Of a stretch of 20,095 nt of DNA, positions 8,976-19,510 are shown one piece after another. The stretch's first letter is position 1. Each line of letters starts with the position of its first letter. The notes below the pieces were generated by a model. It was given only the letters and a program-made list of their open reading frames with translations. It was not told the DNA's origin and ran no database searches. Origin of the DNA: Candidatus Aenigmatarchaeota archaeon (GTDB taxonomy: Archaea; Aenigmatarchaeota; Aenigmatarchaeia; Aenigmatarchaeales; JAHLMR01); the NCBI GenBank assembly GCA_018920255.1, contig JAHLMR010000010.1, positions 1-20,095 on the forward strand. The letters run 5' to 3'. Position numbers and translations under genes: made by a program.

Positions 8976-11003
8976 ATGATTGAAAATGTATTTGAGGAAG
9001 ATTTAGAAGTTCAACTTTTTGAGGATTTTTTAAATTTATATTATAAAAATAAAATGGAAGCAGCCATTCTTGAAGGTAAAAAATCATTTGAAATAGATTA
9101 TTCAGATTTAGCAAAATTTAATCCTGAGCTTGCTGAAAAAATTTTAAACAATCCAACTCCTACTTTTAATTCATTAAAATCTGCAATAAAAAAAATTGAT
9201 TTAGTAGTAGAACAACCTATAATTTTAGAACCAAGAATAAAAAATCTTCCTGAAGATGTTAATATAAGAATAAGAAATATTCGTTCTGAACATATAGGAA
9301 AATTTATATGCATAGAAGGTATAGTTAGACGTGCTTCAGAAGTACGTCCAGAAATTTTAGAAATAGAATATAGATGTCAAGAATGTGGAAGAAAAATTTC
9401 TGTAGAGCAAAAAGAAAAAACAATAAAACAGCCTGAAGTCTGTGAATGTGGAAAAAGAGGAAAATTTGAAGAAGTTGATAAAAAAAGATTTGATGCAAGA
9501 TGGATTGTTTTAGAAGAAACCTTTGAAGTTGCAAGTGGGGAAAAATTGGGGGAAATAAGAGTTTATTTAAAAAATGATCTAACAACTCCAGAAATGCAAA
9601 GAAAAACAGATCCAGGAAACAGATTAAAAATTACAGGAATTGTTAAAGAATTAAAAAAATTTACAAAAGGAAAAATGAGGACAGATATGGATATTTATTT
9701 AGAAGCAAATCATATTGAAAATATTGAAATTGAATGGGAAGAAGTAGTTATTTCCCCTGAAGATGAAGAAAAAATAAAAGAGCTTGCAAAAAATCCAGAC
9801 ATATATAATATTTTAGTATCTTCTATAGCGCCATCAATATACGGAATGGATGATATAAAGAAAGCAATAGTATTTCAACTTTTTGGCGGAGAAAGAAGAA
9901 TATATCCTGATAAAACAAAAGTAAGAGGAGATATTCATATATTATTATTAGGTGATCCATCCACTGCAAAATCCCAATTACTAAAACTTGTTTCTAACAT
10001 AATACCTAGAGGAAAGTATGTTAGTGGTCATGGAACAAGTGCAGCAGGTTTAACTGCAACTGTAATTAAAGATGAAGAATTTTTAGGCGGTTGGGTATTA
10101 GAAGCAGGAGCAATGGTATTAGCAAACAAAGGAATTCTTGCTATTGATGAATTTGATAAAATGTCTAAAGAAGATCAAATTGCTATGCATGAAGCATTAG
10201 AACAACAAACTATTTCTATTGCAAAAGCATCTATAGTAGCCACTCTTCCAGCTCAAGTTTCGGTTCTTGCTGGTGCAAATCCAAAATTTTCAAGATTTGA
10301 TAGATTTAAATCAATTTCAGAACAAATTGATATTCCTCAAACTTTATTAAGCAGATTTGATTTAAAATTTGCTCTTTTTGATATTCCTGATATTGAAAAA
10401 GATGAAAAAATAGCAGATCATATAATGAAAACTAGATTAAATCCAGCATCTGTTGAACCAATCATAAAACCAGAATTTTTAAGAAAATATATAGCTTATG
10501 CAAGAAAAAATATACATCCAGAACTTACACAAGAAGCACTTGAAAGAATTAAAAAATTTTATATTGAAATGAGAAGTATGTATTCAAGTGCAAAAGATGC
10601 AGTACCAATAACATTAAGGCAACAAGAAGCATTAATAAGATTAGCAGAAGCTTCTGCTAAAATAAGACTTTCTGATAAGGTTACAATAGAAGATGCTGAG
10701 CGTGCCATAGAGATAATGAATGTATCTATTAGACAACTTGGTTATGATGTCGAAACACAAAAATTTGATGTAGATAAGCTTGAAGGTGGAATGCCCGCAA
10801 GTCAAAGAAATAAAATTACTATTGTCCTTGATACCATAGAAGAACTTGAAAAATCTTTAGGAAAACAAATACCTTTAAATGAACTTCTTTTAGAATTAGA
10901 AGATAATGGTATAGGAAAGAATGAAGCAGAATCTTTAATAAATAAATTACAACAAGGAGGTCTTATATTCTTTCCAAGACAAGGTTATATTCAAAGAATT
11001 TAA
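8976..11003 (+). CDS. mcm: MCM replicative helicase
   Basis: 675 residues, full length, no intein. N-terminal domain (1-255) with a zinc site C134-x2-C137 ... C156-x-C158. AAA+ domain (about 260-600) with Walker A GDPSTAKSQ (326-334), Walker B LAIDEFDKM (D391-E392), sensor 1 N435 (AGANPKFSRFD) and arginine finger R460 (LLSRFD). A C-terminal winged-helix segment follows from about 605. It forms a ring hexamer that unwinds DNA at the fork using ATP. The Shine-Dalgarno site GAGGT (8964-8968) precedes the ATG. The 3' end overlaps the convergent 275-aa gene by 4 nt. No Cdc6/Orc1 or origin repeat is seen nearby. Confidence 0.98.
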   Translation: MIENVFEEDLEVQLFEDFLNLYYKNKMEAAILEGKKSFEIDYSDLAKFNPELAEKILNNPTPTFNSLKSAIKKIDLVVEQPIILEPRIKNLPEDVNIRIRNIRSEHIGKFICIEGIVRRASEVRPEILEIEYRCQECGRKISVEQKEKTIKQPEVCECGKRGKFEEVDKKRFDARWIVLEETFEVASGEKLGEIRVYLKNDLTTPEMQRKTDPGNRLKITGIVKELKKFTKGKMRTDMDIYLEANHIENIEIEWEEVVISPEDEEKIKELAKNPDIYNILVSSIAPSIYGMDDIKKAIVFQLFGGERRIYPDKTKVRGDIHILLLGDPSTAKSQLLKLVSNIIPRGKYVSGHGTSAAGLTATVIKDEEFLGGWVLEAGAMVLANKGILAIDEFDKMSKEDQIAMHEALEQQTISIAKASIVATLPAQVSVLAGANPKFSRFDRFKSISEQIDIPQTLLSRFDLKFALFDIPDIEKDEKIADHIMKTRLNPASVEPIIKPEFLRKYIAYARKNIHPELTQEALERIKKFYIEMRSMYSSAKDAVPITLRQQEALIRLAEASAKIRLSDKVTIEDAERAIEIMNVSIRQLGYDVETQKFDVDKLEGGMPASQRNKITIVLDTIEELEKSLGKQIPLNELLLELEDNGIGKNEAESLINKLQQGGLIFFPRQGYIQRI

Positions 11004-11827
11004 ATATTTTTTATTTCTTCTTTTGCTCTAATTCTTTCAATTGATTCATTTATCATTCTTACACTTGTTGCTAAATCTGGAAGTGTTTCTTTAAATACCT
11101 TTTCAACAGCACTAATCTTACCTTCTATTTCTTCCATTTTTCCAGAACTTTCATCTAGTTTTTCTAATAATGTTTTTTCTCTTTCTTTTAAACTAACTTC
11201 TATTTCATCTATCTTATGTCTTAAATTTTCTATTTTTTCTTCTAACATCATATCTTTTCTTTCAAAATCACTAAATCTTTCCTCAAGTATTGCAAATTTT
11301 TCAGACACAATTCCTTCAACAACTTCCTCTAATGTAATTTCTGTTGCAGGAGAAGGAATTTCTGGTTTTGGTGCAATTTCTTCTGGTTTTTCTTCAAAAG
11401 TATATTTTTCTTCTTTAGGAGCATAACCAGGAGCAGTAGGAAGTTCTATTGGTGGTTTTTCAACCATAAGAATACGTTCTGGTGGAACTCCTAATGGAGT
11501 TGGTAAATTATGTTTTGGTGGCTCTGCTGGTTTTGGCGTTGATATTTCAGTTATTTCAAAACTAGGAGATGGTACAGGAGGTGTTATTTCTGGTTGTGGG
11601 TGTCTAGGAATAGGTGTTGTTTGAGGTGCACCAGTCACCTCTGTTTTTAAAACTTCTCTAAAACCTTGTACTATCTGTTCTCGAGTATAACCTCTTTTTA
11701 ATAATTCAGAAATTATCATTTGTTCAGACATTCCTGCTTTCATAAAAGCTCTAATTTCGTTCACAGGAATTTGTTGAATTGTAGAAGGTTGTTTTTCTTC
11801 TTTTTTCTGCCCAAATAAAAAAACCAT
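11000..11827 (-). CDS. Cytoplasmic protein: helical N-domain, proline-rich linker, coiled coil
   Basis: 275 residues with three visible parts: a small helical domain (about 20-62) built around VNEIRAFMKAGMSEQM and LLKRGYTREQIVQGF, which looks like two paired helices of a UBA- or SHOCT-like binding module; a proline-rich linker (about 65-160; TPIPRHPQPEITPPVPSPSF is typical); and a charged coiled coil (about 165-265). No membrane helix. It is last in the minus-strand membrane-protein cluster, 54 nt after the preceding gene, so it could be the soluble scaffold of that membrane complex. Its 3' end overlaps mcm by 4 nt. I do not recognise a named family; the cluster role is inferred from position only. 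Confidence 0.8.
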   Translation of the reverse strand: MVFLFGQKKEEKQPSTIQQIPVNEIRAFMKAGMSEQMIISELLKRGYTREQIVQGFREVLKTEVTGAPQTTPIPRHPQPEITPPVPSPSFEITEISTPKPAEPPKHNLPTPLGVPPERILMVEKPPIELPTAPGYAPKEEKYTFEEKPEEIAPKPEIPSPATEITLEEVVEGIVSEKFAILEERFSDFERKDMMLEEKIENLRHKIDEIEVSLKEREKTLLEKLDESSGKMEEIEGKISAVEKVFKETLPDLATSVRMINESIERIRAKEEIKNI

Positions 11828-11881
11828 TAAATATCACCTTAAATTTTAATATTTTTAATAATTTAAAAACCTTTCCAAACT

Positions 11882-12397
11882 TTATTTTTCTTTTTCTAAA
11901 ATAGTATATAATACTAATATAGTTATTATTACAAAGAATAATAGTCCGACTAAATTAACATTTTGTAATAAATTTGGAATTCCAATATATGCCGGACCGC
12001 CAATACTTATAAAAACAAATAATGCTATTAAAAAAAATGCAAATAGCCAATATTTTTCATGAGTTCTGAAAACATGCTCTTGTACTTGTGGTCCATATTT
12101 TCCTGCACCCACTGTAAATTTTGTTAATCCAGTTATTTCTAGAAATACAATTAAAATCATCAATCCTAATATTAAAATTAATAATTCTTTACCAAGACTT
12201 GAAATTAAATTAATTAAACCCGATGGAACAGCAAATAAAATAAGTAGAGAAAGGGAAATAGATATTAATGCTCTTGCAGCACTGTTTTTTGGTACCTTTG
12301 CAGTTGAAGTTATTCCATAAATTATTGCAAATGATAATAACCATAATAATATATCCTCTATTCCAAGTCTTGTTAATATTGAATAATCTACTGCCAT
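11882..12397 (-). CDS. Five-helix membrane protein, paralogue 4 of the array
   Basis: About 171 residues from the ATG at 12397. I prefer this start to the in-frame GTG nine nt upstream because that GTG lies inside the Shine-Dalgarno sequence AGGGTGAT (12402-12409). About five membrane helices (near 12-30, 42-63, 67-88, 115-133, 145-164). The shared array signature appears as VPKNSAARALISISLSLLILF between helices 1 and 2, and a polar loop (about 92-112) separates helices 3 and 4. It starts 1 nt after the stop of the upstream paralogue, so translation is likely coupled. No catalytic motif; no known family recognised. Confidence 0.85.
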   Translation of the reverse strand: MAVDYSILTRLGIEDILLWLLSFAIIYGITSTAKVPKNSAARALISISLSLLILFAVPSGLINLISSLGKELLILILGLMILIVFLEITGLTKFTVGAGKYGPQVQEHVFRTHEKYWLFAFFLIALFVFISIGGPAYIGIPNLLQNVNLVGLLFFVIITILVLYTILEKEK

Positions 12398-12398
12398 T

Positions 12399-12929
12399 TT
12401 AATCACCCTTTTCTAATACTAACCATAATATAGCAATTATAATTGCTATTATAAAAAATATTCCTGTTTGTTGAAACATATTTAAATTAATATTCCATCC
12501 TAAAAGATTAAATCCACCTGAAGCTAAAAATATAATAATTGCTATTATAACAAATATTGCTAGGAAATATTTTGAATAATATTGGAAAATGTTTACTTCT
12601 ACAGGTTTAGGAATTTCTTTCCCTTCTTTATCTCTTTCTATTATAACAACCCTTTTTCTCATTCCAATCGCTTCTAAAAACACAATAAAAACTAAAATTC
12701 CTAATACTGTTAAAATTAGTGCTGAGCTCATTTTTGAAAGCACAGCAACCATAGTAGCTGGTGCAGAAAACATTACAAAAAATGCTAATACTAATGAAAT
12801 TATTGCTCTTGCTGCTTTACTTTTAGGGATTTCAGAATGTGAAAGCAATCCATAAACAATTGAAAATGTTAAAAGCCAAATTACCATATCCGGTAACCCA
12901 AGTCTTTCTAATGCTGTAATCTCTACCAT
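12399..12929 (-). CDS. Five-helix membrane protein, paralogue 3 of the array
   Basis: 176 residues with the same architecture as its neighbours: an N-terminal LERLGLPDMVIWLLTFSIVYG helix, the signature IPKSKAARAIISLVLAFFVMF, a third helix ending IVFLEAIGM, a longer charged loop (RKRVVIIERDKEGKEIPKPVE, about 95-115), and two more helices. The start has a Shine-Dalgarno site, GGTGAT (12933-12938). Similarity to paralogues 2 and 4 is clear by eye across helices 1-3, so the genes arose by tandem duplication. Function unknown; an integral subunit of a hetero-oligomeric complex is an inference. Confidence 0.87.
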   Translation of the reverse strand: MVEITALERLGLPDMVIWLLTFSIVYGLLSHSEIPKSKAARAIISLVLAFFVMFSAPATMVAVLSKMSSALILTVLGILVFIVFLEAIGMRKRVVIIERDKEGKEIPKPVEVNIFQYYSKYFLAIFVIIAIIIFLASGGFNLLGWNINLNMFQQTGIFFIIAIIIAILWLVLEKGD

Positions 12930-12940
12930 TTAATCACCTT

Positions 12941-13444
12941 TTATTTCTTTTCTTCTTTTATTACTAAAACCCATACTGCTAATATCATTATTATTAAAAA
13001 TAAAAATATACCCAATAGTGTTTCATTCATAGCTATATTTGGAAATCCAATTAATTGTAATCCACCAGCAGATATAAAACCTATTATTACTAAAATTATT
13101 AAAGCAGATGCAAAAAGTTTATAGTGTGCAGAAAATACATTTTTCTCACCGGCTTTTAGTTGAGTCATTTCAAAAAATATTAATAAAACAAATATTCCTA
13201 CTGCAATTACAATAAAAATTGATATCATAGTTGATATAAAAGAGGTTACTGCTGTCGCAGCAGCTGCAAATAAAACCATAAATGCAGATATTATAGAAAT
13301 TACTCCTCTTGCTGTAATAGATCTAGGAAGATTTATGTGGGATAGAATTCCATAAACAACTGAAAGTACTAATAACCATAATAATATTAGCGGAAAACCT
13401 GCTGCTTTCATGTTTAAAATAAATGCTTCTATTGGACTTACCAT
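12941..13444 (-). CDS. Five-helix membrane protein, paralogue 2 of the array
   Basis: 167 residues. Helix 1 reads AAGFPLILLWLLVLSVVYGIL; the signature LPRSITARGVISIISAFMVLF follows, then a third helix ending LLIFFEMTQLK, a short loop and two helices. A minus-strand TATA-like element (CTTTAAATTTTA, about 13465-13476) lies about 26 nt upstream of the ATG with a purine-rich BRE-like flank, and there is no Shine-Dalgarno site, so this gene may have its own leaderless promoter inside the cluster as well as read-through from upstream. It is separated by 11 nt from paralogue 3. Function unknown. Confidence 0.86.
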   Translation of the reverse strand: MVSPIEAFILNMKAAGFPLILLWLLVLSVVYGILSHINLPRSITARGVISIISAFMVLFAAAATAVTSFISTMISIFIVIAVGIFVLLIFFEMTQLKAGEKNVFSAHYKLFASALIILVIIGFISAGGLQLIGFPNIAMNETLLGIFLFLIIMILAVWVLVIKEEKK

Positions 13445-13485
13445 AGAAAAAATAAAGAAATAATAAAATTTAAAGGTTTCGCTTT

Positions 13486-14016
13486 CTATTTTTCTTTTTC
13501 CTTTTCTTTTGCTTGTGCTTCTTTTAAAGCAGCCATTTCAGATAATGTATGATATTTTATGATACTGTAAATTAATACTAATATAAAAATTAAACCCACA
13601 AGAAACATTAAATTTTCCTGATTTCCTATAAACGGAATATTTGATGGAAAATATCTTATTACATACCAACCTATACTAAACAATAGTAAAAGTGCAACTA
13701 CAGATGGCACAATATCAAATAAACTTACTGATGATTGAAGTTTAATTCCAAATATTTTGAAAATAAATGCAATAAAAAATAAAATTATAAAAATCCAAAC
13801 CATTGAGGGAAGATACATCCAAATCATACTTACAAATGGTTGATAAGAAATTGCAAAAATTGCAAGCGCAAATGAAATTAATGTATTAACTGCTCTTGAA
13901 AAAATTTTTGATAAATTTAAAACTCCAAAAACAACTGCAAAGATAAATACAAATAAGATTATCATTTGAGAAGTTGGATCAATTGTTCCAAGAGAAGTAT
14001 AAACCAAATTTATCAT
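13486..14016 (-). CDS. Membrane protein, divergent paralogue 1 of the array
   Basis: 176 residues, about five membrane helices and a charged C-terminal tail (LKEAQAKEKEKEK). It keeps a weak version of the array pattern: a helix MIILFVFIFAVVFGVLNL, then KIFSRAVNTLISFALAIFAIS, matching the K/P-x-S-x-x-A-R-x-x-I-S region of the others but lacking the proline. Its ATG overlaps the upstream gene's TGA (ATGA, 14013-14016), so translation is probably coupled. The most diverged member, suggesting specialisation inside one complex. No known family recognised. Confidence 0.83.
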   Translation of the reverse strand: MINLVYTSLGTIDPTSQMIILFVFIFAVVFGVLNLSKIFSRAVNTLISFALAIFAISYQPFVSMIWMYLPSMVWIFIILFFIAFIFKIFGIKLQSSVSLFDIVPSVVALLLLFSIGWYVIRYFPSNIPFIGNQENLMFLVGLIFILVLIYSIIKYHTLSEMAALKEAQAKEKEKEK

Positions 14017-14594
14017 CCCTCAAGTTCTCTAAGTTTAGATTCTAATTCTATTTTTGTTTGCTTTAATCTTTGAAGTTCTAATTGTAAATATGGATTTCTT
14101 TCAAGTTTTGGATCTCCTTCAAGAGTCTTAATTTGTTTGTTTACTTTTTCAATTTCTTTTTCTAATATTTCAATATCTTTTTGTTTTCCTGTTGTTTTTT
14201 TAGCAATTATTTTTCCAGCTTCCTGGGCTACTCCAGCAATTCCTCTTATAGTAGATGGTTTTATAAACATCGAAATTATGAAAAATAATACTCCTAATAT
14301 TAGTAGTATTTGAAATGATGAAACAAAAATTGGTATTAAAAATGTTCCATACCAACCGCTCCAAATAATATATAAATATACAGTTAACATTAAAACTGTT
14401 TCAATTGCTCTGTGTCCTCCGATAATTCTAAAAACAGTTGCTTTTGCAAATAAAATAAGAAAAAGAAATAATATTATATGTGGTATTAATATAAGATAAA
14501 GTAATTTATCTTGAACTAAAGGATATCTTGAAATTAAACTAGGGCTTATTCTTAAAATATCAACCAATACTAAAGTTATTATATCTGTTGGCAT
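14013..14594 (-). CDS. Membrane protein with C-terminal cytoplasmic coiled coil, first gene of the array
   Basis: 193 residues. Three to four membrane helices (about 30-50, 65-85, 90-110) are followed by a long charged helical segment (about 130-193; KQKDIEILEKEIEKVNKQIK is typical) that should form a coiled coil. The sequence FRIIGGHRAIETVLMLTVYLYI may correspond to the array's ARxxIS region, but homology to the five-helix members is uncertain. A strong minus-strand TATA element (ATATTTAAATATT, 14616-14628) about 28 nt upstream predicts a leaderless mRNA and marks the start of the operon. Its coiled coil and that of the 275-aa protein at the other end of the cluster could pair; this is speculative. 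Confidence 0.84.
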   Translation of the reverse strand: MPTDIITLVLVDILRISPSLISRYPLVQDKLLYLILIPHIILFLFLILFAKATVFRIIGGHRAIETVLMLTVYLYIIWSGWYGTFLIPIFVSSFQILLILGVLFFIISMFIKPSTIRGIAGVAQEAGKIIAKKTTGKQKDIEILEKEIEKVNKQIKTLEGDPKLERNPYLQLELQRLKQTKIELESKLRELEG

Positions 14595-19423: not shown

Positions 19424-19510
19424 TGGGCCTGCTGTGATTTGAACACAGGTTTCGAGGTCCCGAACCTCGAGTCCTACCATTCTAGTAAACTATGGCTAGA
19501 CTACAGGCCC
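19424..19510 (-). tRNA. tRNA-Pro (anticodon CGG) with a D-loop intron
   Basis: Acceptor GGGCCTG/CAGGCCC, D-stem GTCT/GGAC, anticodon stem CGAGG/CCTCG with loop TTCGGGA (anticodon CGG, reading CCG), T-stem CTGTG/CACAG with loop TTCAAAT, discriminator A, and an encoded CCA (19421-19423). The gene is 87 nt; removing a 14-nt insert in the D-loop leaves 73 nt. The 3' end lies about 40 nt upstream of the SMC start codon on the same strand. A TATA-like element for the tRNA lies at about 19537-19548. Confidence 0.95.
19480..19493 (-). other. 14-nt intron in the D-loop of tRNA-Pro
   Basis: With these 14 nt (ATAGTTTACTAGAA) removed, the D-arm reads GTCT-AGCCTGGTA-GGAC, a standard D-arm with A14, G15, G18-G19 and A21. 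The junction forms a bulge-helix-loop: exon CUAG (19499-19496) pairs with intron CUAG (19485-19482), bulge 1 is CC|A and bulge 2 is AA|U, and cutting after the second bulge nucleotide gives that D-arm exactly. The outer helix is weak, so the motif is of the relaxed kind. Confidence 0.7.

Follow-up and report, generated by a model that had tools for sequence, protein, structure and literature searches.

Tandem five-helix membrane proteins of an Aenigmatarchaeota genome probably belong to a type IV pilus machine of DPANN archaea

Introduction

What is the function of a set of duplicated membrane proteins encoded in tandem, together with coiled-coil partners, in a member of Aenigmatarchaeota? The question is raised by a stretch of 20,095 nucleotides from contig JAHLMR010000010.1 of assembly GCA_018920255.1 (hereafter the window). 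An earlier note described the array as an undescribed operon for a hetero-oligomeric membrane assembly. Here, we examine the proteins themselves, the pilus genes found elsewhere in the same genome and the gene neighbourhood in relatives, and we propose that the array is probably part of a type IV pilus (T4P) machine.

Results

The six-gene array

The ORF list places six genes on the minus strand between 11000 and 14594 (Table 1). The overlapping or adjoining starts read from the sequence earlier were confirmed. The second gamma copy has a GTG start that overlaps the upstream gene by 8 nt, with an in-frame ATG three codons in, and the C2 and alpha genes overlap by 4 nt. The two flanking proteins that the earlier note described, a membrane protein with a C-terminal coiled coil and a soluble coiled-coil protein, are C2 and C1, respectively.

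Table 1. Genes of the array, with positions in the window and the evidence for each
Feature	Positions	Strand	Evidence
C1, soluble coiled-coil protein, 275 aa	11000..11827	-	ORF, 20-member alignment
Five-TM protein, gamma type, second copy	11882..12406	-	ORF, identity, tree
Five-TM protein, gamma type	12399..12929	-	ORF, AlphaFold2 model, tree
Five-TM protein, beta type	12941..13444	-	ORF, alignment, tree
Divergent five-TM protein, alpha type	13486..14016	-	ORF, profile, tree
C2, three-TM protein with predicted cytoplasmic C-terminal coiled-coil hairpin	14013..14594	-	ORF, predicted structure

The remainder of the window is mostly housekeeping in content (Alba, TBP, MCM, Nre, HSP20, SMC and 16S rRNA). 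MCM sits on the side of the array where the pilus ATPase stands in many relatives, and DUF357 lies on the other side, as it does in several relatives. ARAGORN reports a tRNA-Pro at 19425–19491; Rfam, at the gathering score, does not list it.

The five-TM proteins form one family

Three of the five-TM proteins are clear paralogues (37–38% identity by alignment; 37% between the two gamma copies), and the alpha type is a divergent fourth (21%), which is the grouping first seen in the array. Local alignment scores exceeded those of composition-shuffled sequence by 21–36 SD among the main three and by 4–6 SD for the fourth. The family profile (73 homologues) has four matches in the window genome, every one within the window, and the divergent member is matched at E = 2.1e-32. 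The helix-1/loop signature from which the family was recognised is real, and is its best-conserved part: W/F18, A/S23, G27, L29, I44 and F50 are among the most conserved positions across the 73 homologues.

An AlphaFold2 model of the first gamma protein, made with the family alignment, has a pLDDT of 86 and comprises five long hydrophobic helices (12–32, 38–55, 58–88, 119–136 and 155–173), in agreement with the five-helix architecture read from the sequence, with a predicted cytoplasmic β-hairpin at 91–113. Family-wide counts of K+R were 0.64 for the N-terminus, 1.70, 0.23, 2.92 and 0.41 for loops 1 to 4, and 1.33 for the C-terminus. This positive-inside pattern, together with a cleavable-looking signal peptide in three family members, suggests an N-out/C-in topology.

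No module protein matched Pfam or NCBIfam above cut-off, and a scan of all 73 five-TM members gave just scattered weak matches to unrelated membrane families. Sequence-profile searches of the PDB with the module proteins gave no convincing match, those of the coiled coils (e.g. haemagglutinin) being generic. In the PDB fold search, Foldseek returned E-values above 1 for both predicted models, and the best VIA-align result (Z 5.8, rmsd 9.6) was not meaningful. A MotA/TolQ/ExbB proton channel was considered and rejected, as MotA_ExbB scored E = 0.089 (13 bits against a cut-off of 22.9) and was absent from the family-wide tally. Variants that mix features of the five-TM family occur at L051:1877-2650, L057:8719-9390 and L099:5445-6911; they comprise a five-TM protein with added helices, as well as TM proteins that combine a signal peptide with a long C-terminal region, either coiled coil or helical.

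The paralogues are separate lineages

In a maximum-likelihood tree, alpha, beta and gamma are separate lineages, each well supported and represented by orthologues in other families. The beta protein belongs to its own orthologous clade (10 rows, support 100/99) and the alpha protein to an orthologous clade found across the class (13 rows, support 100/98). The gamma clade holds both remaining copies, of which the second looks like a later duplication. Since distinct copies have long been retained in small genomes, we infer that they may occupy different positions in one complex, and the persistence of the types as separate orthologous lineages fits a fixed hetero-oligomer.

The coiled-coil partners

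C1 has the N-terminus typical of its family (MxFxFxKKK), a small helical domain, a Pro-rich linker and a C-terminal coiled coil in which the motifs EEVVEGIVxEKW and RIGSIEKxFKxxLP are conserved across the 20-member alignment. It lacks TM helices, and no signal peptide is visible. The pilus loci of relatives also encode C1b, a second coiled-coil protein that is small (about 130 aa). With neither signal peptides nor TM helices, C1 and C1b are read as cytoplasmic. Homology between the two is not claimed, as the hhalign match (76%) was restricted to generic coiled coil. FlaC_arch matched 11 of 20 C1 sequences (best E 0.004) and 7 of 14 C1b sequences (0.012), weakly and among many generic coiled-coil matches.

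In C2, a C-terminal helical hairpin follows three TM helices (pLDDT 89); its coiled coil lies on the positively charged side and is predicted to be cytoplasmic. In most of the class relatives examined, the C2 gene lies upstream of the five-TM genes. We considered C2 as a fifth paralogue because its comparison with the alpha protein gave a pairwise z of 6.9, but hhalign did not support this (probability 6.5% and 0.4%).

A hetero-oligomeric membrane assembly with a cytoplasmic coiled-coil part, as proposed in the earlier note, gains indirect support from the separate lineages, the C-in topology and the predicted cytoplasmic coiled coils.

A dispersed pilus machine in the same genome

The statement that no ATPase is visible holds within the window and fails for the genome, which also encodes a pilus machine, dispersed on other contigs. 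The ATPase is on contig 3 (PF00437, T2SSE/VirB11 family, E = 4.9e-16, 58.8 bits against a cut-off of 24.9) and shares 63% identity with that of a relative; the Walker A motif GTRGSGKT is present in the family consensus. It is accompanied by a small coiled-coil gene and three pilin-like genes, which are tandem and encode single-TM proteins beginning MKGIELPIN. The platform (TadC/FlaJ) is on contig 19 (PF00482, T2SSF, E = 1.9e-8, 34.7 bits against 25.2, in two stretches). It is a full 9-TM TadC with 55% identity to that of a relative, and is followed by several further pilin-like genes for single-TM proteins beginning MKG. The KG site is present in these proteins, the residues after it match the class III signal motif loosely, and there is no Pfam match, so we call them pilin-like, judging by the N-terminus and TM helix. 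A prepilin peptidase (PF01478, above cut-off) is encoded on contig 24 (G000:C24:8545-8856) and may serve a second T4P system as well. Thus, module and machine are split over three contigs with the prepilin peptidase elsewhere, and the module adjoins neither ATPase nor TadC.

Two further observations concern this genome. Contig 11 (L049:5912-13255) carries a second, more conventional T4P locus with a 577-aa ATPase, two 5-TM half-TadC genes, MKGISAI-type pilins and possibly its own coiled-coil protein, similar to Locus 1 as described in the text of Hamm et al. 2024 (PMC11291902). Contig 13 (L050:642-2258) encodes a third, more distant secretion-ATPase homologue of 538 aa with no obvious pilus genes adjoining.

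In relatives the module accompanies the pilus motor

The five-TM family was found in 30 of 40 relatives searched. At most of the 20 loci examined from these relatives, the five-TM genes stand beside a T2SSE ATPase and a 9-TM T2SSF platform, along with C1b and single-TM pilin-like proteins. Within the class (156 genomes, which are also the phylum-level set), the five-TM profile matches 147 genomes and the pilus ATPase is present in 140, with both in all 39 high-quality genomes. The ATPase is also absent from six of the nine genomes that lack the five-TM family (odds ratio 27, Fisher p = 3e-5), a co-absence that may be partly due to assembly gaps. As both are nearly universal, co-occurrence is weak evidence.

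Taking the best-scoring matches listed, 64 genomes had both genes placed: 36 with the two within 10 kb on one contig, 6 with them farther apart and 22 with them on different contigs. We also compared 80 named loci, that is, contigs around the ATPase from Aenigmatarchaeota, Nanohaloarchaea, Woesearchaeota and ‘Nanoarchaeota’. The five-TM family was present in 48 of these, C1 in 60, C1b in 67 and TadC in 67, and the most frequent unrelated family in 14. Gene order across DPANN, raised in the earlier note, proved to be conserved: the commonest arrangement, five-TM(n)-C1-C1b-ATPase-TadC, is seen in Aenigmatarchaeota, Nanohaloarchaea and Woesearchaeota. The five-TM family adjoins the ATPase in Nanohaloarchaea. 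A check of 25 whole genomes found it in every one, even where it does not adjoin the ATPase, and it was present in 145 of 148 genomes of the phylum holding a woesearchaeal genome. The pilus machine is carried by nearly every genome sampled from several groups of DPANN, archaea that are very small and often depend on a host.

At L023:1845-7181 (minus strand), inteins interrupt a relative's pilus ATPase (Intein_splicing E = 7e-53, LAGLIDADG), and ATPase ORFs of 1243–1970 aa at L025, L027, L039 and L056 suggest inteins likewise.

Discussion

A probable membrane module of the pilus machine

The module's link to the pilus is strong, and its conserved genomic context makes a role in the pilus machine likely. 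We consider that the array genes probably encode the membrane/scaffold part of a type IV pilus machine in DPANN, which may form a collar around the platform and be tied to the cytoplasmic motor by coiled coils. We infer the collar or scaffold role from the topology and copy number of the five-TM proteins, from their coiled-coil partners and by analogy with ArlX/ArlCDE (PMC8978795).

In this arrangement, the alpha, beta and gamma subunits would form a hetero-oligomeric membrane collar around the TadC platform. The cytoplasmic loops of the five-TM proteins, together with the C2 coiled coil, would bind the two soluble coiled-coil proteins, and these could hold or gate the hexameric ATPase, as ArlX or ArlCDE may do at the archaellum motor. 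ATP hydrolysis would then drive pilin insertion and filament extension, and the resulting pilus might attach the cell to its host or to neighbouring cells. The earlier suggestion of a role in cell–cell contact stays plausible because T4P have been proposed as mediators of DPANN–host contact.

The best-surviving alternative, which we regard as unlikely, is that the module is a separate membrane complex, for envelope organisation or for lipid or solute handling, and is merely a conserved and perhaps co-regulated neighbour of the pilus locus. In its favour, the module and the ATPase are on different contigs in the window genome and several relatives, the module lies away from ATPase and TadC in some relatives too, and profile and fold searches found homology of the five-TM family to no known T4P component. 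Against this, the order is conserved in three DPANN groups whereas other neighbours recur in at most 14 of 80 loci, and C1 travels with the five-TM genes and likewise with the ATPase. The stand-alone envelope-organisation complex of the earlier note is hence not upheld, since the module accompanies the T2SSE ATPase and T2SSF platform in relatives; a link to a known secretion family, which the note named as counting against its reading, exists by genomic context (T4P) and not by homology.

It is rather improbable that the five-TM array and ATPase form a dedicated DPANN secretion or uptake channel, in which the pilus-like motor would drive a pseudopilus through or alongside a pore of five-TM proteins and no external adhesive pilus is made. 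The ATPase and platform families found here occur in type II secretion as well as in T4P, the five-TM proteins are polytopic and present in several copies, and many large minor-pilin-like proteins adjoin TadC. However, the helices of the five-TM proteins hold few conserved polar residues, chiefly E86 at the end of helix 3, the PDB fold search gave no match of the five-TM model to channels, and no substrates were seen. We give a similarly small chance to a broader idea, that the T4P-type motor and the hetero-oligomeric five-TM complex are a DPANN-specific trans-membrane machine that moves material through the envelope at host contact sites, beyond pilus building. Least credible is that the five-TM proteins are extremely diverged TadC/PilC platform pieces, comparable to the 4–5 TM second component of subclade 4D systems: proteins with 4–5 TM helices are the sole T4P ATPase partners in cases described in Makarova et al. 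2016 (PMC4858521), but here the genome also encodes a complete 9-TM TadC that has two T2SSF stretches, the predicted five-TM model lacks a T2SSF-like cytoplasmic helical bundle, and the family-wide scan gave no profile match.

If the module is part of the pilus machine, a testable function is given to proteins that have no match among curated families but are present in nearly all genomes sampled from Aenigmatarchaeota and the woesearchaeal phylum. T4P are a leading candidate for the attachment of DPANN archaea to their hosts and for exploitation of them. A membrane module that is near-universal in two DPANN groups, adjoins the pilus motor and is unlike known pilus components offers targets for localisation and interaction studies in the few species in culture.

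Comparison with known systems

One parallel is the archaellum scaffold, where ArlX or ArlCDE probably encircle the ATPase and platform as a ring in the cytoplasm (PMC8978795); the module likewise has accessory proteins that may surround these components. ArlX has one TM helix and ArlCDE none, multi-copy five-TM proteins are absent from the archaellum, and sequence homology to its scaffold is limited to the weak FlaC_arch matches.

Makarova et al. 2016 and 2019 (PMC4858521, PMC6393860) noted that archaeal T4P loci hold additional membrane components and that there are divergent pilus islands in DPANN. The system described here shares with the T4P loci of the 2016 survey, in the portions that bear on it, a secretion ATPase, TadC, pilins, and added membrane and intracellular proteins, as well as modular loci that are often split. 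In those portions, the census includes Nanoarchaeota but does not extend to DPANN at large, and it mentions no tandem array of five-TM genes.

The nearest published locus appears in a 2024 Nat Commun paper by Hamm et al. (PMC11291902), whose main text reports two T4P loci with coiled-coil proteins in cluster 2 DPANN, several of the proteins being detected by proteomics in Nanohaloarchaeum antarcticus. The gene positions and types given there for Locus 2 agree with the C1-C1b-ATPase-TadC order found here. ATPase and TadC stand beside the coiled-coil genes in the named loci of Nanohaloarchaea, Woesearchaeota and Aenigmatarchaeota, and are split in the window genome. C1 is probably one of the published coiled-coil proteins, and C1 and C1b are most likely those of Locus 2, an identification made from position, not from the published sequences. 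That text likens the DPANN coiled-coil proteins to the viral attachment protein sigma-1, whereas C1 and C1b are read here as cytoplasmic; the likeness fits them poorly, as they have no signal peptides or TM helices. The main-text account of Locus 2 leaves the tandem five-TM family and the three-TM protein unmentioned, and the five-TM family appears undescribed in the literature covered, namely open-access papers and, for PMC11291902, the main text. Of the undescribed operon in the earlier note, the locus with its coiled-coil proteins was therefore already published, and it is the membrane-protein module, as far as these sources extend, that looks new.
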